Notes: generated by a model not told the origin, from the sequence alone. Shown: positions 5,533-30,799, counted from the first letter of the stretch. The stretch: DNA of 34,134 nucleotides from Sphingobacteriaceae bacterium (GCA_023251775.1 JAHEYC010000036.1:1-34134); one strand, 5' to 3'. A program made the numbers and translations.

Positions 5533-6612
5533 ATGAAAAATTTGAGGATCATATTAGTAGTTTTTGTTTTAACGTGTGCTGTGCCAACGAAAGCGCAAGA
5601 CATTCACTTCTCGCAAGTAAGTGAAGCGCCACTTTTGTTAAACCCTGCCAATACAGGTTTTTTCCCGGGGTATTTCAGAGCCATTGTTAACTATCGTAAT
5701 CAGTGGGCATCAATGGGTCAGGCATTTAAAACCGTTAATCTTTCGGTAGATGCAGGTTTGTTTAAAAGCAAGAGAAGAAAAGCTTTTTTAGGTTTGGGAT
5801 TCGTATTATATCAAGATAAGGCAGGTTCAGCAAAAATAACAAGAACTCACGCCATGGTTAATTTGAGCGGACTTGTAAAACTGAGTAAAAAGAGTGTTCT
5901 GTGTGCGGGTTTATATGGAGGTGCTATTGGGAATACAGCAAATTACAGCAGTCTTACTTATGCATCACAGTTTGATGGCAATGCGATCATACCTGCTGCA
6001 CCAAGCGGTGAAAATGCCGTGTTCCGTAATTTCACAACAACCGATCTCGGAATGGGTGTAGCTTATGAATTAAGCAAGGTGATAATTGATACAGATCATG
6101 ATGATGTAACAAAACTAAGAATTGGTTTGGCAGCTTACCATGTGAACAAACCAAAACAAGAATTTTCGGCGGGTGCTGTGTACCGTTTACCTGTGAGATA
6201 TGTATTATCGTTATTCTCTAATATTGATTTTGAAGATACACGCTTTACATTGACCCCAACATTTATATTACAAAAACAAGGTAAAAAAGATAAATCGATC
6301 CCGGCTGATTATAGGATCCGCGGAGCTTACGAATTTGTTACCGGAAGTTATTTAAAAGTACGTTTGGCAACCGGGACCAAAACTACCGGCGAAAAGACCC
6401 AAAATGCTTTAGGATTTGGATTATTTTACCGTTCAAAAGATGCTTTGATACCAAAATTAATACTTGAACTCGGTGATTATGCAATTGGTATGTCGTACGA
6501 TGTAAATATCTCGGGTTATAAAACAGCCAGTAAGTCAAATGGTGGTTTTGAGATATCATTACGTTATAACAGACTTGCTAATTCGTTGTTTGATACACGC
6601 AGTGAGTTTTAA
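5533..6612 (+). CDS. PorP/SprF family type IX secretion outer-membrane protein
   Basis: The protein is 359 aa with a signal peptide (cleavage after TKA, before QDIHFSQ). The family's N-terminal signature follows: QDIHFSQVSEAPLLLNPANTG. The rest alternates polar and aromatic residues as in an outer-membrane beta-barrel. In the family, PorP/SprF proteins attach or help secrete proteins with type B sorting domains at the cell surface. The gene lies 18 bases after the CotH-like type B protein on the same strand, probably in one transcript, so it is very likely that protein's dedicated partner. Length is normal, and no damage is seen. Confidence 0.88.
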   Translation: MKNLRIILVVFVLTCAVPTKAQDIHFSQVSEAPLLLNPANTGFFPGYFRAIVNYRNQWASMGQAFKTVNLSVDAGLFKSKRRKAFLGLGFVLYQDKAGSAKITRTHAMVNLSGLVKLSKKSVLCAGLYGGAIGNTANYSSLTYASQFDGNAIIPAAPSGENAVFRNFTTTDLGMGVAYELSKVIIDTDHDDVTKLRIGLAAYHVNKPKQEFSAGAVYRLPVRYVLSLFSNIDFEDTRFTLTPTFILQKQGKKDKSIPADYRIRGAYEFVTGSYLKVRLATGTKTTGEKTQNALGFGLFYRSKDALIPKLILELGDYAIGMSYDVNISGYKTASKSNGGFEISLRYNRLANSLFDTRSEF

Positions 6613-6658
6613 TAAGCTTAAATTAGTTTTTTTAATACCTTTAAATTAAAACATTCCG

Positions 6659-6874
6659 ATGAAAAAAATAATATTTGCTCTATCAATAGTTGGGTTAACC
6701 TCAACATCTTGTCTCAAAAAACATACTTGTCAATGTTTTGATAGTACCGGTTTTTCACCCGGCCCTTCGTCGCTAACAACTTCAAGCAAATCTGAAAGAG
6801 AACAGTTCAAATCAGACTGTGAAAAAGCCGACAAAGCTCAAAAAACTGCCGGTGGTCATTGTGACTATAATTAA
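6659..6874 (+). CDS. Small cysteine-rich lipoprotein
   Basis: A 71-aa protein with a type II signal peptide: MKK, a hydrophobic stretch, then the lipobox TSTSC with Cys18 as the lipidation site. The mature part is about 54 residues, with four further Cys (in HTCQCF, KSDCEK and GGHCDYN) and many Lys/Glu/Ser. It follows the porP-like gene by 46 bases and may belong to the same transcript. A weak TAnnTTTG-like sequence (TACCTTTA, 6636-6643) lies 15 bases upstream of the ATG. I do not recognise a named family. Confidence 0.65.
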   Translation: MKKIIFALSIVGLTSTSCLKKHTCQCFDSTGFSPGPSSLTTSSKSEREQFKSDCEKADKAQKTAGGHCDYN

Positions 6875-19567: not shown

Positions 19568-20713
19568 ATGCGCCTGTTCCTAGTTTATATTATTTTGACT
19601 GTCACGGCTTTAAAAACCAATGCCCAATACATGCATTATGATGTGAGAGATGGTGATACAATTAATAAAGTGGATAAGGATAGTTTACGTCAGGGTGTTT
19701 GGAGAACGTATTACGGAACAGGAAAATTTAAAGCAGAAGTAGTTTACAAAAACAGTAAGAAACAAGGCTTGGAGATCCAATGGCATAATAATATTGGCAA
19801 TTGTGTGAAACAGGAAACGTATTATAATAATGGAATATTAGATGGTCCTATTACGTATTACTCGAAGAACTGTAAAAAAGAATTGATAGAAACATATAAA
19901 AATGGTGTGAAGGAAGGATATGAGATCTCGTATCACAACAATGGAAATATAAAAGCAGAAGGAAATTTTAAGAAGGGAAATTTGGATGGCGTTTATAAAA
20001 TTTATGATAAGGCCGGAAAATTTACCTTTGAAAGTAGAAGTACCAATGAAGAAGTGACCTATGAACCAAACATGGAGGATACATCCAATTATGGCGTTTA
20101 CAAAGTATTGGCGCGAAATTCCAAATGGAAAAAAACAATGATCGTAACTGATCTTACCGGAAGTATGTATCCATATCCTAAAGAAATAAATACATGGTTA
20201 AGATTACATTTTATGAGAGATACTGCGCAACAGTACTTTGTTTTTTTTAATGACGGTGATAATAAAAAAGATGCTGATAAAAAGATCGGCATCACCGGTG
20301 GGATTTATGTTTGCAAAGCAAAAACAACCGAGGACCTTGTAAATACAATGAAACTCACCATTAAAAAAGGCGAAGGCGGCGATTCGCCCGAAAATGTGGT
20401 AGAAGCAATTCTCACAGGATTAAAAAAAGTTCGTAAGCCCGATAATATTATTTTAATTGCCGATAATTGGGCCAAAGCCCGCGACCTAAGTTTAATATCT
20501 CGAGTAAAAGTACCGGTGCGTGTTATTTTGTGCGGTGTTTATGAAGGCATGGAGATCAACACCGATTATTTAAATATTGCTTACAAAACGCGTGGAAGTA
20601 TTCATACCATCGAACAAGACATTACTGATCTTATCAATCAAACATCCGGAAAAAAATTCAACATCAATGGGTTTGATTATATTATTAAGAACGGGAAGAT
20701 CATGGCGAACTAA
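19568..20713 (+). CDS. Secreted MORN-like repeat and von Willebrand A domain protein
   Basis: A 381-aa protein with a signal peptide (LFLVYIILTVTALKTNA|Q). Residues about 40-165 hold four to five short repeats of the MORN/YwqK type (GVWRTYYGTGKFKAEVVYKN, then GLEIQWHNN, GPITYYSKN, GYEISYHNNGNIKAEGNF, GVYKIYDKAGKF). From about residue 185 comes a von Willebrand A-like fold with an intact metal site start: Asp195, Thr197 and Ser199 in TDLTGSM. The later parts GGDSPENVVEAI and DNIILIADN also fit vWA. Such a fusion suggests a surface or periplasmic adhesion or scaffolding role. The ATG is 7 bases after the MITE-like element, so its promoter must lie in or beyond that element. Confidence 0.78.
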   Translation: MRLFLVYIILTVTALKTNAQYMHYDVRDGDTINKVDKDSLRQGVWRTYYGTGKFKAEVVYKNSKKQGLEIQWHNNIGNCVKQETYYNNGILDGPITYYSKNCKKELIETYKNGVKEGYEISYHNNGNIKAEGNFKKGNLDGVYKIYDKAGKFTFESRSTNEEVTYEPNMEDTSNYGVYKVLARNSKWKKTMIVTDLTGSMYPYPKEINTWLRLHFMRDTAQQYFVFFNDGDNKKDADKKIGITGGIYVCKAKTTEDLVNTMKLTIKKGEGGDSPENVVEAILTGLKKVRKPDNIILIADNWAKARDLSLISRVKVPVRVILCGVYEGMEINTDYLNIAYKTRGSIHTIEQDITDLINQTSGKKFNINGFDYIIKNGKIMAN

Positions 20714-20816: not shown

Positions 20817-23498
20817 TTAAAACTCAAAAGTTATCTGCCCATCCCCATCAAAAAAATCTTTGCCACCTTTTAATTTTTCTGTGGCACGACGGTGCAATTC
20901 ACTTGGGGAAAGTCCGCCCTTTTCATTCTTGTCTCCTTTTTTTGATAAGAATTTTTTAGCGTTCTTAATTTCTTCCGGTTCGCGTAAGTTGATCTCTTTT
21001 ACTTTGTACATGGTAAGCTTCTTTCCTTTGGCTTTCATTGCTACCTCAGGTGCAAATTCAGTTAACTTAACCACCTCATCAGGAATAGTTTTTCCCTTTT
21101 CTTTATTGAATTTTATTTCAACTACAGGATCCGGCTGATTCGTGATCAACTCCACATTTGATTCTTCGTGCTCTGTAATAATAAGTGTTTTATTGGTGGT
21201 TGGCTCAGGTAAAAAGCGTTTAGTAAAGTACGACTTGCTTTCTCCATCATAATAAATACACGTGAGCAATTGCGTGTAATAATATTTTTCGATGATAATG
21301 ATGTCCTCATCAAAATGATTCACCAATTCGTAGGTATACAATTTGTAAATTCCTTTGCTCGTGATCGTCATGATCTTATCATCGTCAGCAAATTTTCCTA
21401 AATAGGTTCCGCGTTCTTCTTTATTTAAGCGATGCGTTGTTTCATCAAACCAAATATCCTCTGCGCCAAAAACTGCAGCACCTTTTTCTTTTAATACAGC
21501 TTTGTTTACCGTGTATTTTGTAACAATATTTCCTGCCGCAGTTCGTGCTTTCACAGGTAATTCGGCAAAGTCAACATCCAAATTTAATTTGCGCACTCCT
21601 GTTACTGCTCTCAATATCACAGTTACTTTATCTGTTTCGCTATTTGGATTTGCACTGAACCAAAACACAACACTTTCTTTATTTCCTCTTGTTAGATCGT
21701 ACTCTTTATTAAGCGTTACACCAACAACATTAAAACGCTTCATGAACACAATGCCTTTTGGTCCGTCGCGATAGATCATATTATAAGTGGTCTTCTCATC
21801 ATTTCGTTTAAAAATGGCCACGTGCAAAACATCTTTTCCAATAAATACTTTTTCCGATACCTTGAACACTTTCATTTTACCATCCTTACTAAAGGCAATG
21901 ATCTCATCCATCACACTGCAATCGGTCACAAATTCATCTTTACGTAATCCTGTGCCCACAAATCCCTCTTCACGATTCACGTAAAGTTTTTCTGTAGCCA
22001 TGATCACTTCCGATTTTTCGATAGTCTCTAACTGTTTGCTTTCGGTTCTACGCTCACGTCCTTTACCGTATTTTGTTTTAAGTGTTTTAAAATACTCAAT
22101 GGCGTACTCGGTTAAATTAGCAAGACTGTATTTTACATTTTCGATCTTCGATTCCAGATCTTTCATGAACTCATCGGCTTTGATGCTGTCAAAACGCGTG
22201 ATACGGATCATTGGAATTTGCGTTAAGCGGTGTAGATCTTCGTCTGTTACCTCGCGTAAGAATTTCCGTTTGTGCGGCTTAAAACGAGCATATAAATATT
22301 CGTATAAGGTTTCTTTATTGGCGTACTTCTTAAAATCAATGTACATCTCTTCCTTAATGAATAATTTCTCTAAAGAAGCAAAGTGCCATTTCTCTTGTAA
22401 TTCCTTCAACTCAATTTCCAACTCACGCTTTAAAAGTGCAAGTGTTTTGTGAGTAGAAATTTTAAGCATCTCACTTACACCAAGGAATTTTGGTTTTTGA
22501 TCTTCAATGATACACGCATTTGGCGCAATGCTCATTTCGCAATTTGTAAATGCAAATAAAGCATCGATCGTTTTATCGGTACTAATTCCTGGTTGTAAAT
22601 GGATCTGGATCTCTACATCTTCCGATGTATTATCCTCCACTTTTTTGATCTTGATCTTTCCTTTATCATTAGCAGCTAAAATTGAATCGATCAAAGAACT
22701 TGTTGTTGTGCCAAACGGAATTTCATTGATCACTAATGTTTTTGAATTCAATTCTTTTATTCGCGCGCGAACTTTTATTCTTCCGCCACGCAAGCCATCA
22801 TTGTATTCACTAAAATCGGCAATTCCTCCTGTATAAAAATCGGGATAGATATGTGCTTTCTTTCCTTTTAGAACTTGAATAGAAGCATCAATTAATTCAT
22901 TAAAATTATGCGGTAATATTTTACACGCTAAACCAACGGCAATTCCTTCAACACCCTGCGTTAACAGCAAAGGGAATTTCATTGGCAATGTTACAGGTTC
23001 TTTATTTCTTCCGTCGTAACTTAAAACCCACTCGGTAGTTTTTGGATTGAACACAACATCCAATGCAAATTTCGAAAGACGCGCTTCAATATAACGAGGC
23101 GCCGCTGCACTATCGCCGGTAAACACATTTCCCCAGTTACCTTGGCAATCAATTAAAAGATCTTTTTGTCCAACCGAAACTAATGCATCGCCAATACTCG
23201 CATCACCGTGCGGGTGATACTTCATGGTATTACCAATAAGATTTGCCACTTTGTTGTAGCGACCATCTTCCAATTCCCACATGCTATGCAGGATCCTACG
23301 TTGTACAGGTTTTAAACCATCTTCGAGTGCGGGAACAGCGCGTTCTAAAATAACATAACTGGCATAATCAATGAACCAGTTCTTGAACATTCCCGACACA
23401 TGCAATACGCGATCTACTTCACTATGTCCATCGCCGGAAAATAATTTATTAGCGTCATTTTCATCCGGGTTATAGTTCTTTTTATCCTTCTTGGCCAT
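20817..23498 (-). CDS. parC: DNA topoisomerase IV subunit A
   Basis: An 893-aa type IIA topoisomerase A subunit. DGLKPVQRRILHSMWELEDG, KYHPHGDASIGDALV and AAAPRYIEARLSK are canonical, and the active-site Tyr is Tyr136. Next come a GVEGIAVG region, a coiled-coil tower (residues about 350-470) and a C-terminal beta-pinwheel-like part ending in a Lys/Glu-rich tail. It acts with ParE to separate daughter chromosomes. The motifs and its Bacteroidota-typical short coiled form favour ParC over GyrA, but the two are close. The usual partner lies 5.4 kb away, with four envelope genes between. A TATATTTG box (minus strand, 23527-23534) lies 28 bases before the ATG. Confidence 0.9.
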   Translation of the reverse strand: MAKKDKKNYNPDENDANKLFSGDGHSEVDRVLHVSGMFKNWFIDYASYVILERAVPALEDGLKPVQRRILHSMWELEDGRYNKVANLIGNTMKYHPHGDASIGDALVSVGQKDLLIDCQGNWGNVFTGDSAAAPRYIEARLSKFALDVVFNPKTTEWVLSYDGRNKEPVTLPMKFPLLLTQGVEGIAVGLACKILPHNFNELIDASIQVLKGKKAHIYPDFYTGGIADFSEYNDGLRGGRIKVRARIKELNSKTLVINEIPFGTTTSSLIDSILAANDKGKIKIKKVEDNTSEDVEIQIHLQPGISTDKTIDALFAFTNCEMSIAPNACIIEDQKPKFLGVSEMLKISTHKTLALLKRELEIELKELQEKWHFASLEKLFIKEEMYIDFKKYANKETLYEYLYARFKPHKRKFLREVTDEDLHRLTQIPMIRITRFDSIKADEFMKDLESKIENVKYSLANLTEYAIEYFKTLKTKYGKGRERRTESKQLETIEKSEVIMATEKLYVNREEGFVGTGLRKDEFVTDCSVMDEIIAFSKDGKMKVFKVSEKVFIGKDVLHVAIFKRNDEKTTYNMIYRDGPKGIVFMKRFNVVGVTLNKEYDLTRGNKESVVFWFSANPNSETDKVTVILRAVTGVRKLNLDVDFAELPVKARTAAGNIVTKYTVNKAVLKEKGAAVFGAEDIWFDETTHRLNKEERGTYLGKFADDDKIMTITSKGIYKLYTYELVNHFDEDIIIIEKYYYTQLLTCIYYDGESKSYFTKRFLPEPTTNKTLIITEHEESNVELITNQPDPVVEIKFNKEKGKTIPDEVVKLTEFAPEVAMKAKGKKLTMYKVKEINLREPEEIKNAKKFLSKKGDKNEKGGLSPSELHRRATEKLKGGKDFFDGDGQITFEF

Positions 23499-23526
23499 TA
23501 AAGTGCAAATTCAATTAGTAAACGTG

Positions 23527-23534
23527 CAAATATA
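23527..23534 (-). promoter_or_regulatory. Candidate -7 box of parC (TATATTTG)
   Basis: Read on the minus strand this is TATATTTG, a full match to TAnnTTTG, 28 bases before the parC ATG. No TTG element is seen at the expected -33 position. Confidence 0.4.
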
Positions 23535-23654
23535 ATAGTTGAAGGGCGTTATAGGTGTGAATAAATTGGAGGTTTACTAACAATCTTCATTTTTTTAAGA
23601 ATTAGAAGTGCCTGAAATTAAGGATTTTAGAATTTTGAATTTGGTTCTTTTATT

Positions 23655-23842
23655 TGGGCGTGCCGGCGAAGCTCACTCAAAATTTACTGGAAGTTCGCTC
23701 GCCGTCGCGCTTTTCGCTACAAGCCTGCTTGTCCTTTGCTATGTTTGTAGGGCTGCGGTGGCTCCTAAGGTCGCCTCCTCGCCCAACAAACATACGCAAA
23801 GTACTAAGCAGGGCTTTTCGCTGCAATCGCTCACGCGGCAAT
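23655..23842. repeat. G+C-rich interspersed repeat with a long imperfect hairpin
   Basis: It starts TTTGGGCGTGCCGGCG and ends near CGCTCACGCGGC. Its G+C content is clearly higher than the flanks. A long stem runs from 23721-23753 to 23781-23816: for example TATGTTTGTAGGGC pairs with GCCCAACAAACATA at nearly all positions, and AAGCCTGCTT with AAGCAGGGCTT with one bulge. The motif GCTTTTCGCT occurs twice as direct copies flanking the stem. I recall similar TTTGGGCGTGCC...CTCACGC elements in Flavobacteriia intergenic regions; that recollection is unverified. Confidence 0.7.
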
Positions 23843-23866
23843 ACAGTTTACTATCCATTAAAAAAA

Positions 23867-25336
23867 TCAAGTATTCAATTTCTCGAGTCTCATGATCACC
23901 TTTTTGTCCTTTTTGTAGTATTCAAACACAGCTACATAACCCGGTTTTGCAGGGAGAACAGTGAATTGACTTGGCTTTGTAGTTAGTTTAACTTGATCGT
24001 TCAACATTTTTCCATCTTTATACGTTGCGGCACCAATAATATAATCACCACTATCCGAATCTTTTTCATAATTACAATACACAGTGGTAAATCCCATTTT
24101 ATCTGCTGTGATGGTTGTGTAACAATAATCGTCGGCGGTAAATAATCCCATTTTTAGCATCATTCCAACAGCAGCCTGACCGTTAACCGTATTTATATAA
24201 GAAGCAATATTTGTTTTTTTCTTATCCATGAAATTAATTTTCGTCAAAACTCCTTTTTCAATTTCAAAAATAAGCATGTCGTAAATATTTTTTTTGTCGT
24301 ACAATTCACCGATCACAAATGTTTTGTCGTTCATTTGAAAAACCTTTCTTATCAAAACCGAACGATCTTCCATCATCTTTAATTTTTCCGCATCGGTTAC
24401 AACTTTTGGTGCATCATCTTTTAAGGAAATATACGACTCACTTGCCAGAGCTCCGTCGTTTGAAATTACGCAAACTGCTATCCCAGTTTGTTTTGAGGAC
24501 TTATCATAAAACTCACCCGAAATTACTTTATATCCAGGTTTTCCTTCAACAAGATCCGTTACGCCAACTATATTTTTAAAATTAGGGATCATTAACTTCG
24601 GGAACATTTTTCCCGTTTTAAGATCGAACGAACCGAAAAATCGTTCTCCTTCAAATGGCTTTTTTCTGTCCTTATAAAAATTCATTTCAAATGTGATCCT
24701 ATCTTTATCCGAATTTAAAAATGAACACGCTTCGTAAGCCTTATCATCAGTTTTACCCGAGCCTGCTTTCCATAATTCAGTTCCACTATTATTAAATCCA
24801 ATGATCTCGAATTTTTGTGTGGTGGAATTTGTTCCATAAATAGCGAAACCAATTCCCGGTAAAGAAACCAAGGTATGCGTTTGTCCTATCATTGCAGCAT
24901 AAGGTGAGCCCTCTGATTCTTTCATTAATTCTACCATCTCCTTTGGTATGGCTGTTACGTATTTCCCTTTTTCGGTGAGATCAGAACTGTAGATAACATA
25001 CTCAAACTTCTTTTCTTTCTCGTCAAAAAAATGAAAACAAAAATGATCTCCATTAAATTTGGCATCCTTCAATTTTATATTTTTCGACTTGGTTACTTCC
25101 TTAAAATTAGTTTGCTTAAAATTATTATCATAAATACATAAGCCATATTTGCTTTCACCTGAACCGGCCTTTTCCATGGTATACATAAAATAATACCCCT
25201 TCACTTGATCGTTCTCGTAAATGGCTTTTACATTTTTAAAATCGAAGGATACAACTTTTTCAATGTTTGAGTTTTGCGATACACTAGTTTGTGCAACACC
25301 AAAAACTATCAGAAATGCAATGACTAATTTTTTCAT
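23867..25336 (-). CDS. Secreted protein of unknown function
   Basis: A 489-aa protein with a signal peptide (KKLVIAFLIVFGVAQTSVS|Q). I do not recognise the family with confidence. The mature part alternates short hydrophobic strands with Lys/Asp/Gly turns (for instance KGYYFMYTMEKAGSGESKYG, GIGFAIYGTNSTTQKFEIIG, GYKVISGEFYDKSSKQTGIA), which would fit a beta-propeller-like or repeated beta-sheet fold. There is no T9SS sorting domain and no lipobox, so it is likely periplasmic or secreted. It is the last of four envelope genes between parE and parC, 74 bases after the LPP20 gene on the same strand, and may belong to that transcript. Confidence 0.72.
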   Translation of the reverse strand: MKKLVIAFLIVFGVAQTSVSQNSNIEKVVSFDFKNVKAIYENDQVKGYYFMYTMEKAGSGESKYGLCIYDNNFKQTNFKEVTKSKNIKLKDAKFNGDHFCFHFFDEKEKKFEYVIYSSDLTEKGKYVTAIPKEMVELMKESEGSPYAAMIGQTHTLVSLPGIGFAIYGTNSTTQKFEIIGFNNSGTELWKAGSGKTDDKAYEACSFLNSDKDRITFEMNFYKDRKKPFEGERFFGSFDLKTGKMFPKLMIPNFKNIVGVTDLVEGKPGYKVISGEFYDKSSKQTGIAVCVISNDGALASESYISLKDDAPKVVTDAEKLKMMEDRSVLIRKVFQMNDKTFVIGELYDKKNIYDMLIFEIEKGVLTKINFMDKKKTNIASYINTVNGQAAVGMMLKMGLFTADDYCYTTITADKMGFTTVYCNYEKDSDSGDYIIGAATYKDGKMLNDQVKLTTKPSQFTVLPAKPGYVAVFEYYKKDKKVIMRLEKLNT

Positions 25337-25410
25337 AAATAGATTTATTAACTCTATAAATATATAAAGAATACTTGCATTTTAAAATAAAAGAGGGGGA
25401 AAATTAGAGA

Positions 25411-26823
25411 CTAATAGATGATCATTTTACGCTTCATGAAAAAAAGCGACTCGCTTAAGCGGACCTTTAATTTAGTGTTGCTATAAGCGTTTATTCCGGC
25501 TTTTTCGGAGCTATTGGCATAACCAAATATATCGGTCACCAAACTTTTATAAAGTACTTCGCCCTTATTATTCTTTAAAGCAACATTAATGGTCAATTGT
25601 GCAAGATTCAATTTAAAATTGCTCACCAATACATCATTACTAATATCTTCAGCAGTATTTGCGTCCATCTCTATCACGTAATCGCTTGCCTTTATATTAT
25701 CAATGATCTTTATTTCTTGTCCGTTAAATTTTTGCTCAACATATTGTTCGATCATATTTGTAGGCAATTGCTTACTAAAATTACTTTCTTTTGAAAGTAT
25801 AAAAAGACTGATCGGTTCAATATTCACTTGCACTTTCAACTCCGGTGTTTGAATGAATTGTTTTAAGATGGTGATACTTGTTTTTCCTATCGAATCATTT
25901 TCGATCAATTTTTCAATATCAGGGTTGAACGTTACTGATGATAATTGGAACTGCGGTTCAACGCCGTTGATCTTTAATTGGATCTCGCCCGACGAATTTG
26001 TAGCTATATGTTCTTCTATCTTTAAAAATTCATCATCACTGCTAAGCGAGAAAGGAAAATCATTTAACGCAGCCCCATTAGCGGTAGTTACTTTAAATAT
26101 GATCGGATTATAATTTGGTTGATATGGTTTTACTACCGGAATTACCTGTGGTTGAACAATAGTAATAGTTTGCAATTGGTTTTGAATAAGATTAGTTAAT
26201 TCAAATACATTTTTAATACCATTACTTTGTGTGGGATCAAAAACGATCTCTTCATTTAAATATGGATTTAAAATTCCAAAGGCCTGAATGCGTTTTTTTA
26301 ATGCAGCCGAAAAATTCTTATTCTTTTCATCGGCAAAAGATAAAGCAATTAAATTAGACGCTTTTGTAATTGTATTTTGTTTCTTTTGCTCTTTTCGTTT
26401 GGCATGTTCGGCTTTATCTAATTCGTAATATACCCAATATTGTTTATCGTTCTCGTAACTATCTACCATGGTATAACCTTCAATATTATCAGAGGCCGTT
26501 AATTTGATCAATGAATTAAAATTTTGATCAAAAGAATTATTAGTTGATACACTTTGTAAAACGGAGTTAGTAGAAATGTCCACTTTGATCTCGGAAGCAA
26601 GATCAAATAAAGCGTTTTGTTTTGCTTCGGTCTTATAATCCGATGAGCGTGATTTATCGGCCACGCCTATTCCAATATATTTAAAACCATTATTCGGACG
26701 ACTACTTACCCAATTTGGTGTTTTAGCTTCAACAGTTGTGGTGGCCTCTTTCCCCTTTTTTTGAGCAAAGCTTACATTACTAATAAGTAAAACAAGAAAA
26801 AGATATTTAAAATAGTTTCTCAT
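25411..26823 (-). CDS. LPP20 family envelope protein
   Basis: A 470-aa protein with a signal peptide (YLFLVLLISNVSFA|Q); there is no lipobox Cys. Residues about 35-145 match the LPP20 family pattern: PNWVSSRPNNGFKYIGIGVA, then an Ala-rich helix (EAKQNALFDLASEIKVDIS) and YWVYYELDK. LPP20 domains are found in outer-membrane lipoproteins such as H. pylori Lpp20 and Vibrio FlgP. A Lys-rich helix and a beta-rich C-terminal half of unknown fold follow. Its ATG is one base after the stop of the TPR lipoprotein gene, so the two are surely co-transcribed and probably work together in the envelope. Confidence 0.75.
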   Translation of the reverse strand: MRNYFKYLFLVLLISNVSFAQKKGKEATTTVEAKTPNWVSSRPNNGFKYIGIGVADKSRSSDYKTEAKQNALFDLASEIKVDISTNSVLQSVSTNNSFDQNFNSLIKLTASDNIEGYTMVDSYENDKQYWVYYELDKAEHAKRKEQKKQNTITKASNLIALSFADEKNKNFSAALKKRIQAFGILNPYLNEEIVFDPTQSNGIKNVFELTNLIQNQLQTITIVQPQVIPVVKPYQPNYNPIIFKVTTANGAALNDFPFSLSSDDEFLKIEEHIATNSSGEIQLKINGVEPQFQLSSVTFNPDIEKLIENDSIGKTSITILKQFIQTPELKVQVNIEPISLFILSKESNFSKQLPTNMIEQYVEQKFNGQEIKIIDNIKASDYVIEMDANTAEDISNDVLVSNFKLNLAQLTINVALKNNKGEVLYKSLVTDIFGYANSSEKAGINAYSNTKLKVRLSESLFFMKRKMIIY

Positions 26824-26824
26824 C

Positions 26825-28162
26825 TTATTTTACATAATTGGTCAAGGTTTGAGAAAATACTTTTACTGATTCCTGATTGGCAATGGTCTCTAATTCTTGT
26901 TCGGTCTTTACCACTTTATTAGCAGTGAATAATTTTCTCCAGTTCTTAGGATTGTATTGTGCCAAAGGGGTAGTTACTTGCGGATTATAGGGATAATAAT
27001 CATCTAAGGCCCCTTTTGGTGCATACGTGAATTCGTTATACTCTACTTCGTCAAACTTATTGATGGTAAGGGTTTGGAAGGTTACAATTTGATTGGTAAG
27101 AGCATTCACTAATTTATATTTAAAGTCGTACGAATACACACGTTTTGATTTTACTTGAAAATAATCGGTGGGTTTGTATTCTGTAATAACGGTTGTATCG
27201 TTCTTTCTATAAGTAACTCTTTGGTAACATTTTGAATTGGCTTTGGTAGGACCAACCACTTGCGATTTTTTATTAAGTACATCAAACACATAAAAGAAAT
27301 CGGCACCCGATGCCTTTCTGATGGCTTGAATAAGATCCACATTTCCTTCAATATCATTACCGGGTAAATTCACAAAGGGCGAATTATTGATCACTTCAAT
27401 ATGTTTAAAGCTGGTACTTGCTGTTTGAGAGAAATTATTAAATAGGTAATCCACTAGAACAGGATTTTGAGATGTTTTTGGTTGGAACATCAATAAACTC
27501 TTTGCTTGTTGCGCAGCACATAATTCGTAAAGCTCTTTTGAATCTTTGTACGAATCAGTTACGGCATGAATACTTGTTAAACTCTTTAACGCCGTCGAAT
27601 AATTCTTTCCTTGTATCATAGTGATCGCATTTTGATACATAGGTTCGCAAGTTGCAGTGATCTTAAATTGTTTGTTCTTTTTATATTCGGGCTTATACTT
27701 ATTTACGTTATTCAAATACGTTAAAGACTCAGTATATTTTTTTTGTTTTACTAATTCAGCACCTTGTACATAATTTTTTTCGCAATATTTTTCAATTGCT
27801 CTTTTGTAATCGTCCTCATAAGCAGTTGGGTAATTTAATGTAACGCTCAATGCTTCGGTGCGACCGGTAAAATTCTTTAGCTTCTCAAAGTTCTCGATAG
27901 AAGTTTCCATTTGTCCGGTGTTATAGTTCCTAAAGAACTCCGACGACATAAATGAAACATATTTCTGTCCCACTTCTTTTAATTTAATGCGGGCATCCAC
28001 ATTGGTTGGTTTGCGTTGCAACGATTCCAAATAGAACTCGGCTGCTTCGTTAACCAAACCTTGTTTCTCGAGCTTCTCGGCTGCCTTGAAGTACTTTTTG
28101 GTACCCGTGCAAGCCATCATGGCCACAAACAATAGGATTAATATTTTTAAACTGATCTTCAT
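26825..28162 (-). CDS. TPR lipoprotein with CsgG/LpoB-like C-terminal part
   Basis: A 445-aa lipoprotein: lipobox MMAC, with Cys18 as the lipidated residue. Residues about 20-230 contain TPR-like helical pairs (KAAEKLEKQGLVNEAAEFYL, KYTESLTYLNNVNKYKP, KNYSTALKSLTSIH). The C-terminal half (ASGADFFYVFDVLNKKSQVV and later YSYDFKYKLVNALTNQIV) is reminiscent of the mid-domain of CsgG/LpoB/FlgT-type outer-membrane proteins, but only by general pattern. It is followed one base later by the LPP20 gene and preceded, 110 bases upstream, by a terminator. It likely sits at the inner face of the outer membrane. The pathway is unknown. Confidence 0.72.
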   Translation of the reverse strand: MKISLKILILLFVAMMACTGTKKYFKAAEKLEKQGLVNEAAEFYLESLQRKPTNVDARIKLKEVGQKYVSFMSSEFFRNYNTGQMETSIENFEKLKNFTGRTEALSVTLNYPTAYEDDYKRAIEKYCEKNYVQGAELVKQKKYTESLTYLNNVNKYKPEYKKNKQFKITATCEPMYQNAITMIQGKNYSTALKSLTSIHAVTDSYKDSKELYELCAAQQAKSLLMFQPKTSQNPVLVDYLFNNFSQTASTSFKHIEVINNSPFVNLPGNDIEGNVDLIQAIRKASGADFFYVFDVLNKKSQVVGPTKANSKCYQRVTYRKNDTTVITEYKPTDYFQVKSKRVYSYDFKYKLVNALTNQIVTFQTLTINKFDEVEYNEFTYAPKGALDDYYPYNPQVTTPLAQYNPKNWRKLFTANKVVKTEQELETIANQESVKVFSQTLTNYVK

Positions 28163-28221
28163 TTTACTTGAACATCGCTTTAAGGCAATGCATAAAAAAG
28201 TAAGGGAGATTGATTGGAGGT

Positions 28222-28254
28222 TAAAAAAAGAGCATCTTTTTACGGATGCTCTTT
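28222..28254 (-). terminator. Intrinsic terminator downstream of the small lipoprotein gene
   Basis: On the minus strand AAAGAGCATC and GATGCTCTTT form a perfect 10-bp stem around the 8-base loop CGTAAAAA, followed directly by a T-run. It lies 18 bases after the stop of the gene at 28273-28845. This ends the parE-side transcript and separates it from the TPR/LPP20 pair. Confidence 0.85.
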
Positions 28255-28272
28255 ATTTAGGATCTATTTGGA

Positions 28273-28845
28273 TTATTGTTCGCTAGCCAATTTCTTCATC
28301 TCAGCATCAAAAATGTTTTGGAATTTTTGTTTATCATAATCCAATTTCAATTTTGCGTCGTTCGAGATCTTGGTATCCATGTTCTTGAAAACCTCATCTT
28401 TTGCAGCTTCTAAAGCCACCCAATAAGTGTATCTTCCATCAGGCTCAAGGAATGTTTTCTCATCTTTAACCCTGATATTACTCATGGTTTGGTTTGTTAC
28501 CTGACGAGCTAACTCTTCAAACTTGTTCTCATATTCCTGATCTTTTCCAACAGTACGTTGATTTGTATACTGATCGGTTACCTTTTTGATCATCGTTTGG
28601 ATCGCATCTGCTAACTCATTTGTAGCATTTTGCATGGCGATCTTTTTAGAAGCAGCAAGATCCGGAGATTTACCAACGTTCTTAGCTCTATAGAAGTTCT
28701 CATCAGATCTGTATTCTTTAGAACTAAAAGGTAAAGTGATCTCTACCGCACCTGTTGTTTGTGCAACTGTCTTTTTCTTTGATTTACATCCAACGATAGT
28801 TAAAAGAGCTATAGCCGGAATTAAAAGTAATTTTGTTGTTTTCAT
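28273..28845 (-). CDS. Small LPP20-like lipoprotein
   Basis: A 190-aa lipoprotein: KTTKLLLIPAIALLTIVGC with Cys20 as the lipidated residue, followed by KSKKKTV. The mature part starts with a short strand (AVEITLPFSSKEYRSDENFY) and then a long Ala-rich helix (SPDLAASKKIAMQNATNELA), then GRYTYWVALEAAKDEV. This resembles the LPP20 logic (A..A..A..L helix followed by YWV) found in the larger protein at 25411-26823, so the two may be distant paralogues. It ends in a charged coiled helix. It is 94 bases after parE on the same strand and ends at a strong terminator. Confidence 0.7.
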   Translation of the reverse strand: MKTTKLLLIPAIALLTIVGCKSKKKTVAQTTGAVEITLPFSSKEYRSDENFYRAKNVGKSPDLAASKKIAMQNATNELADAIQTMIKKVTDQYTNQRTVGKDQEYENKFEELARQVTNQTMSNIRVKDEKTFLEPDGRYTYWVALEAAKDEVFKNMDTKISNDAKLKLDYDKQKFQNIFDAEMKKLASEQ

Positions 28846-28939: not shown

Positions 28940-30799
28940 TTAGGCGAGCAAATTCTCCTCTGCGTCGAGTTCAACACGGAGGTTATCGATAATAAATTCC
29001 TGCCTCTCTTGAGTGTTCTTTCCCATATAATAATTAAGGAGTTCTTGGATGCTCGCTTTTTGGTCTAATAATACAGGCTCAAGACGTATATCCTTTCCAA
29101 TAAAATGCTTGAATTCGTCGGGACTAATTTCGCCTAATCCTTTAAAGCGGGTAATTTCAGGTTTTGGACCTAATTTAGCGATGGCTGCTTTACGTTCTTC
29201 ATCGCTATAACAATAAGCAGTTTCTTTTTTATTACGCACCCTAAATAAAGGTGTTTGCAAGATCTTAACATGATTATTTTTTACCAACTCCGGAAAGAAC
29301 TGTAAAAAGAAGGTCAATAATAATAAACGTATATGCATACCATCCACATCGGCATCGGTTGCAATGATGATATTATTGTAACGCAAATTCTCGATGCCAT
29401 CCTCAATATTCAAGGCTGCTTGCATTAAATTGAATTCCTCATTCTCGTACACAATTTTTTTACCCAAACCAAAACAATTCAAAGGCTTTCCTTTTAAACT
29501 AAATACGGCCTGTGTATTTACGTCGCGTGTTTTTGTGATCGAACCGCTCGCCGAATCTCCCTCGCATATAAATAAAGAGGTCTCCAATCTACGCACATCT
29601 TTTGTATCATCTAAATGTGTGCGACAATCGCGTAATTTTTTATTGTGAAGCGAAGATTTTTTAGCGCGCTCACGTGCCAATTTTTGAATACCCGTTAATT
29701 CTTTACGTTCACGCTCGTTGGCTATGATCTTGGCTTCAATAGATTTTGCAACCTCGGAGTTCTTATGCAAATAATTATCAAGTTCCTTTTTAATAAAATC
29801 ACCAATAAAACTGCGAATGCTTTGTCCGCCCGGAGCGATTTCGTTTGATCCCAATTTTGTTTTGGTTTGCGATTCAAAAATTGGTTCTTGAACTTTTACG
29901 GAAATAGCTGCTACAATTGATTTACGAATATCACTTGGTTCAAATTCTTTTTTAAAGAACTCGCGTATGGTTTTTACGATCGCCTCTCTAAATGCACCTT
30001 GATGCGTTCCTCCTTGCGTTGTGTATTGTCCATTCACATAACTATAATATTCTTCCGTGTAATGTTCATTGCTATGCGTCATCGCTAATTCTATATCCTC
30101 TCCTTTTAAATGAATGATGGGATATAATGTTTCGCCGGTGATATTCTTTTCTAATAGATCTTTTAATCCATTCTTTGATTCATACTCTGCTCCATTTAAA
30201 TACAATTTTAATCCTGTATTCAAATACGCATAATTCCATATCATACGATCCATGTACTCATGAACGTAATGGTATTTTTTAAAGATGCTGTCATCCGGTT
30301 TGAATTCAACAAGCGTTCCGTTCTTTTGTCCGGTGCTTGAAACTAAACGATGTTCCTTTACTAATTCGCCTTTGCTGAACTCTGCCGTTTTTGATTGACC
30401 ATCACGAAATGCAGTTACTTTAAAATTAATAGATAAAGCATTCACCGCTTTTGTTCCTACACCATTTAATCCAATTGATTTTTTAAATGCTTCACTATCG
30501 TATTTACCGCCTGTGTTCATTTTCGAAACAACATCCACTACTTTTCCCAAGGGAATTCCACGTCCGTAATCGCGAATAGAAACAATTCCATCCTTTACAT
30601 TGATCTCGATCTTTTCACCTTCGCCCATCATAAATTCGTCGATACAATTATCCATTACCTCTTTCAGTAATACATAAATTCCATCGTCGAATGCACTTCC
30701 GTCGCCCAATTTACCAATGTACATTCCCGGACGTGTACGAATGTGTTCTTTCCAGTCTAACGACTTTATATTGTCTTCGGTATAGTTTGATTTTGCCAT
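28940..30799 (-). CDS. parE: DNA topoisomerase IV subunit B
   Basis: A 619-aa GHKL-type ATPase subunit, shorter than GyrB (about 640-800 aa). [29 protein letters not shown] (catalytic Glu and Mg-binding Asn), DYGRGIPLG and [16 protein letters not shown] form the ATP site. [13 protein letters not shown] and [10 protein letters not shown] are the metal-binding toprim motifs, and [12 protein letters not shown] is the C-terminal signature. It acts with ParC to decatenate chromosomes. It follows the AIM24-family gene by 37 bases. Confidence 0.93.

Follow-up and report, generated by a model that had tools for sequence, protein, structure and literature searches.

A conserved trio of envelope protein genes in Bacteroidia with a fold-level likeness to flagellar outer-membrane rings

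Domains of the LPP20/FlgP, FlgT-M and CsgG types are known builders of outer-membrane rings, mostly in flagella and secretion. In the Na+-driven flagellar motor, the H-ring consists of FlgO, FlgP and FlgT, whose genes have consecutive locus tags (PMC6375700). FlgP from Campylobacter jejuni, a protein of the SHS2/LPP20 type, builds the concentric rings of the basal disk, and ring formation in this family has been tied to a beta-hairpin insert between the SHS2 helix and the second strand, which is shared by the FlgT rings (PMC12222027). In Helicobacter, the lipidation of FlgP varies between species (PMC11756786). Here, we analyse a stretch of 34,134 nucleotides from a Sphingobacteriaceae bacterium (GCA_023251775.1 JAHEYC010000036.1:1-34134; the window, contig C118), which belongs to a 3.6-Mb Bacteroidota genome with a completeness of 98.5%. 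Between parE and parC, this stretch encodes a small LPP20-like lipoprotein (sLP), a lipoprotein with tetratricopeptide repeats (TPR) and a CsgG-like end (TPR-CsgG), and an LPP20 protein. These three genes are a real conserved unit. Searches of the open-access literature returned no paper describing this trio, whose parts are known and whose combination is new.

A three-gene unit conserved across Bacteroidia

As described in the initial annotation, four open reading frames separate parE from parC; all of them are co-directional on the minus strand:

28940-30799, minus strand: parE, upstream flank (annotation and synteny)
28273-28845, minus strand: sLP, small LPP20-like lipoprotein of 190 amino acids (open reading frame, lipobox, weak LPP20 match, profile match)
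26825-28162, minus strand: TPR-CsgG, lipoprotein of 445 amino acids (AlphaFold2 model, structural matches, CsgG match of an orthologue)
26824, minus strand: single-base gap between TPR-CsgG and LPP20 (TPR-CsgG stop at 26825, LPP20 start at 26823)
25411-26823, minus strand: LPP20 protein of 470 amino acids (PF02169, predicted model)
23867-25336, minus strand: DUF6770 secreted protein (PF20559, E 2.2e-51)
20817-23498, minus strand: parC, downstream flank (NCBIfam PRK12758, 1301 bits)

Profile searches of 395 Bacteroidia genomes found TPR-CsgG and sLP in 85 genomes each and the LPP20 protein in 77; 72 genomes (about a fifth) have the complete trio. TPR-CsgG and LPP20 are adjacent and in an invariant order in 61 of the 72 trio genomes, across 11 families, and a 4-base overlap between both genes is very frequent in these loci. 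The LPP20 protein is accompanied by sLP in all 77 genomes that have it, with the two genes unlinked in 26. At the genus level, the overlaps amount to 26 and 30 genera (p values of 2e-23 and 2e-30, uncorrected for relatedness). In five families (f1, f15, f28, f34 and f38), only part of the genomes have the pair, and LPP20 and sLP are each time either both present or both absent. A lack of co-occurrence elsewhere had been named at the outset as the outcome that would speak against a common complex; the families co-occur far beyond chance. The gene trees of TPR-CsgG and LPP20 also agree (Pearson correlation of distances of 0.91), with families largely monophyletic, which is also what common vertical inheritance would give.

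Within the genus of the studied genome, TPR-CsgG was found in 34 of the 36 other genomes searched; one of the two negative genomes is 73% complete, and in the other (G019) contig ends interrupt the locus within parE and within LPP20. All readable loci of the genus have the order sLP, TPR-CsgG, LPP20, with sLP upstream; in the other families with the three genes linked, sLP lies downstream. The spacing between TPR-CsgG and LPP20, a single base in the window as initially noted, is mostly -4 outside the genus, and in most loci within it (g1) ranges from -4 to +6. Both genes are likely to be translationally coupled. Scans for promoters and terminators revealed no clear operon boundary.

The initial annotation had grouped all four genes as an envelope cluster inserted between parE and parC. 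Three of these genes are conserved, but DUF6770, correctly foreseen as secreted, is present in only 1 of 37 genomes, that of the window, and absent from the other 36 searched. The four-gene cluster is thus rejected, the functional unit is the trio, and DUF6770 is an accessory passenger outside the conserved module. L002, the nearest relative, has an ORF6N gene (6301-6846) in the place ahead of parC that DUF6770 takes up here. The gap between LPP20 and parC (window 23499-25410) is a small insertion hotspot, whose accessory genes differ between close relatives.

In the study genus, the trio usually comes directly after parE; parC is the next gene in roughly half of the longer loci, and in some genomes of the genus, such as G023 and G035, the trio lies away from parE. 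All other families examined have the trio in unrelated contexts. The adjacency of parE and parC elsewhere, assumed from the start, is common in the class: they are neighbours in many families without the trio or with the trio elsewhere, and a sister genus from the same family, which is devoid of the trio, has 110 bp between them in two genomes. The position between parE and parC is therefore incidental, and reflects the history of the study genus, not function. The location between the topoisomerase IV genes in most genomes of the genus could be taken to indicate a role of the cluster in chromosome segregation, but both the unrelated contexts and the empty site in the sister genus speak against it, as do the export signals of the trio proteins, so that such a role is extremely improbable and has been largely refuted. 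In the neighbourhood survey, no gene besides the trio recurs near it in more than a few families, and none of the neighbours points to a client.

The complete minus-strand order in the window is ychF-like GTPase, AIM24-family protein, parE, sLP, TPR-CsgG, LPP20, DUF6770 and parC. Past parC, the opposite strand of the window encodes a secreted protein with MORN_2 repeats and a von Willebrand A-like domain, both weak by Pfam (19568-20713). In several genomes of the genus, the space separating the AIM24 gene from parE codes for a small protein similar to the four-helix-bundle proteins known from 23S rRNA intervening sequences:

L046 5052-5456: four-helix-bundle-like protein
L049 3904-4308: four-helix-bundle-like protein
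L051 4403-4798: four-helix-bundle-like protein
L052 11364-11759: four-helix-bundle-like protein

Domain architecture of the three proteins

TPR-CsgG carries the lipobox ...MMAC-TGTKK. Its TPR are weak by Pfam (E 0.0089), but the relatives and the predicted model show them clearly. The AlphaFold2 model, which, as the other one described here, was built from a shallow alignment of 6 rows (window and related-locus sequences), has a predicted local distance difference test score (pLDDT) of 86.6 and a predicted template modelling score of 0.52. It shows a helical TPR-like arm (residues ~20-219), followed by an alpha/beta domain resembling FlgT-M, TolB-N and CsgG (~219-445). This domain has a long beta hairpin whose two strands (289-320 and 324-353) measure about 30 residues each. 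Both faces of the strands are polar, with 24-30% charged residues and without a lipophilic face, which counts against a membrane pore.

Among the best Foldseek matches, to which the structural list is restricted, the C-terminal domain of TPR-CsgG is closest to 8z5n, the LPHT ring of Vibrio (Z 14.9, 144 residues, 2.9 A), followed by FlgT alone (3w1e; Z 13.9, 145 residues, 3.6 A) and CT253 (Z 13.6), these three being nearly tied, and then by TolB (12.7), HpaA (11.6) and the PelC dodecamer (11.5). The title of the 8z5n entry names the LPHT ring only; we read the matched chain as FlgT from its size and its likeness to 3w1e. FlgP and LpoB do not figure among these best matches, which by itself proves nothing. 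At the sequence level, no FlgT family appeared in the Pfam scans of the window proteins (E up to 10), nor among the 25 listed families matched by TPR-CsgG orthologues. The CsgG/LpoB-like end attributed to this lipoprotein in the initial annotation is borne out by the model and by an orthologue, L038, that matches CsgG (PF03783; 1.3e-11, 44.6 bits, cut-off 20.8), but not by Pfam in the window protein itself, which matches neither CsgG (E up to 10) nor LpoB (PF13036). Loci L118-L123, from outside the class, encode lipoproteins with TPR and a CsgG-type end, without LPP20 or sLP neighbours.

The 470-residue protein scores 47.2 bits against PF02169 (cut-off 25.9), which places it in the LPP20 family, as initially annotated. 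A signal peptide is followed by an LPP20/SHS2-type domain (36-136), a helical linker and, in the model, an immunoglobulin-like domain (~220-336) and a TolB/FlgT/CsgG-like domain (336-470). The model has a pLDDT of 74.7 and is poor in the LPP20 domain, where values fall under 50 at residues 79-113. In all families, LPP20 proteins have, between the helix and the second strand, a stretch of ~35 residues with strand-like alternation, and it is there that the model has its pLDDT below 50. Searches with the LPP20 domain or its profile against PDB sequences gave spurious matches only. The C-terminal domain matches TolB (Z 10.2) and FlgT (3w1e), CsgG and HpaA (all about 9.7), which are tied. An unrelated fold in these proteins had been envisaged as evidence against the initial proposal; the predicted C-terminal domains match folds of the FlgT, TolB, CsgG and PelC type. 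A profile comparison of TPR-CsgG with the LPP20 protein did not align their C-terminal domains, so that their likeness is at the fold level only and a common origin is unsupported. Most orthologues of the LPP20 protein are lipoproteins, whereas the window protein has an ordinary signal peptide ending in ...SFAQ, without a lipobox. This loss is seen in some lineages of the genus (window, 26700-26823; L004-L006, L041, L048 and L054), the rest having a lipobox of the CKSKK type.

sLP has the lipobox ...TIVGC-KSKKK, and a lipobox is present in 31 of 32 relatives. Its conserved C-terminal motif is D-Y-D-x2-K-F-x3-F-D-x-E-M. Its match to PF02169 (16 bits, E 0.016) lies below the gathering cut-off of 25.9, and a weak LPP20 match recurs in 10 of 16 orthologues. 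The profiles of sLP and the LPP20 protein align (hhalign E 2.9e-6, probability 88%), and the single match of the sLP profile among PDB sequences is Lpp20 from Helicobacter pylori (E 0.36). We therefore call this protein LPP20-like, in agreement with its initial description, rather than a member of the LPP20 family. Outside the genus, sLP keeps two cysteines (YCSG... and ...TIC, in L038, L057-L059, L067, L068 and L070), both of which are gone in the study genus, including the window protein, and this suggests a paired loss of a disulfide. Many genomes (G046, G158, G219, G156 and others) additionally encode, at another location, a more divergent paralogue of sLP (E about 1e-30).

A putative assembly beneath the outer membrane

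We tentatively propose, with a little less than an even chance, that the trio is an outer-membrane-anchored periplasmic ring or scaffold. Its three proteins would form one conserved envelope assembly of Bacteroidia, where sLP and TPR-CsgG, and in most species also the LPP20 protein, would be anchored in the periplasmic leaflet of the outer membrane. The FlgP-type (LPP20) domains and the domains of the FlgT-M/TolB/CsgG type would pack side by side, giving a ring or a ring-like lattice beneath the membrane, and the TPR arm would extend into the periplasm, recruiting or holding a client. Surface lipoproteins of Bacteroidota have an acidic export signal after the lipidated cysteine. Here, the residues at this place are basic or small (CKSKKK, CTGTKK), without such an acidic signal, and the proteins should therefore face the periplasm. 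Furthermore, the C-terminal domains of the two larger proteins match the folds of ring-forming proteins, including the FlgT/LPHT ring, the PelC dodecamer, CsgG and the TraT decamer. The conserved linkage and co-inheritance of the genes, the frequent overlap of TPR-CsgG and LPP20, the agreement of their trees and the lack of other recurrent neighbours also favour one assembly, as do the basal-disk rings formed by the LPP20/SHS2 domains of C. jejuni FlgP (PMC12222027).

Several observations weigh against this ring or scaffold. TolB and LptE have the same domain fold yet do not form rings, which means that oligomerisation cannot be concluded from the fold, and the low pLDDT at residues 79-113 leaves the FlgP-type ring hairpin of the LPP20 protein unconfirmed. 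Some genera have TPR-CsgG without LPP20, or LPP20 without TPR-CsgG. Outside the class, only homologues of TPR-CsgG were found, with neither LPP20 nor sLP alongside; TPR-CsgG can thus act alone there, and its family may be older than the trio. Of the undescribed outer-membrane complex suggested in the initial annotation, what stands is a conserved, apparently undescribed module, from which we infer one physical complex, its ring geometry and its scaffold function. A fixed set of three genes with these folds, present in at least 11 families of Bacteroidia and here in a genome where no flagellar P-ring gene could be detected, indicates an envelope assembly that has no name yet, and provides a defined gene set with predictions that can be tested in the laboratory.

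An alternative, which we consider unlikely, is that the trio regulates the synthesis or hydrolysis of peptidoglycan from the outer membrane. TPR-CsgG would then act like LpoA/LpoB or the TPR lipoprotein NlpI, spanning the sacculus to reach a synthase, and sLP and LPP20 would serve as co-factors. LpoB acts on PBP1B from the outer membrane (PMC9593243). The union of TPR and an LpoB/CsgG-type domain on one outer-membrane lipoprotein is consistent with this, as are the LpoB matches in Pfam of three TPR-CsgG relatives, the best of which reaches 7.4e-6 and some of which lie just below the cut-off (L037 and L038, 20.0 and 20.4 bits against 22.3). However, FlgT ranks above LpoB-like folds for TPR-CsgG, no peptidoglycan enzyme recurs near the trio, and its presence in only about a fifth of the class is unlike that of a core wall regulator. 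An export portal or periplasmic funnel, similar to the CsgG curli pore or the PelC polysaccharide funnel, appears to be the less probable of these functions. Even though the CsgG match of L038, the likeness to the PelC dodecamer and the placement of the long hairpin where CsgG has its membrane hairpins would fit such a portal, the polar and charged strands of that hairpin are unlike those of a membrane barrel, and the neighbourhood shows no recurrent genes for a secreted substrate, curli or polysaccharides.

Between these two in probability, and still unlikely, the products could be functionally related but separate envelope proteins, such as stress or trafficking factors, sharing one operon and never one complex. 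The genera lacking partners, the unlinked genes in parts of the class and the generic nature of these envelope folds all point in this direction, but the strict co-inheritance of LPP20 and sLP and the frequent overlap of TPR-CsgG and LPP20 argue against it.

Returning to the periplasmic ring or scaffold, a more specific version, rather doubtful at present, would make the trio an equivalent, independent of any flagellum, to the Vibrio H-ring or the Campylobacter basal disk, bracing the outer membrane around another trans-envelope machine, for example that of gliding or type IX secretion. SprA, of the type IX secretion system, is present in 37 of 37 trio-positive and 38 of 41 trio-negative genomes; since it is near-universal, its presence says nothing about the client of the trio, and the association through SprA carries no information. 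If a flagellum-independent ring were true, the accessory rings of flagella would have their origin in a broader group of envelope rings.

Comparison with related known systems

The CsgG/LpoB/PelC/TolB-N superfamily shares with the trio the fold of both larger proteins' C-terminal domains, and one TPR-CsgG orthologue passes the CsgG cut-off. The TPR-CsgG protein of the window differs in having no CsgG match in Pfam, a polar hairpin that makes a membrane pore unlikely, and a TPR fusion. Regarding the LPP20 side, Lpp20 from H. pylori (PF02169) is a small single-domain lipoprotein, whereas the 470-residue protein described here is multi-domain. The FlgP basal disk of Campylobacter and Helicobacter and the FapH ring also consist of LPP20/SHS2 lipoproteins ringing beneath the outer membrane (PMC12222027, PMC11756786), and the lipidation of FlgP, as that of the LPP20 protein, differs between species; contrary to the trio, these structures are flagellar. 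Both sLP and the LPP20 protein are relatives of FlgP at the fold or profile level only.

The closest described system is the H-ring of Vibrio and Shewanella (FlgO/FlgP/FlgT, LPHT ring), which the proposed assembly would resemble, minus the flagellum. The trio differs from it in the added TPR arm and immunoglobulin-like domain and in matching no FlgT sequence family. The gene for the P-ring protein FlgI (PF02119), the only flagellar gene searched for, is absent from the studied genome and was found in 3 of 14 controls, which makes a flagellar role of the trio very unlikely. The analogy with FlgP and FlgT drawn in the initial annotation thus holds at the fold level, for the C-terminal domains, and not as membership. 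Both systems have in common three outer-membrane-associated proteins with domains of the LPP20/SHS2 and FlgT-M types, and FlgT is the best structural match of the C-terminal domain of TPR-CsgG, whose fold is of the FlgT-M type.

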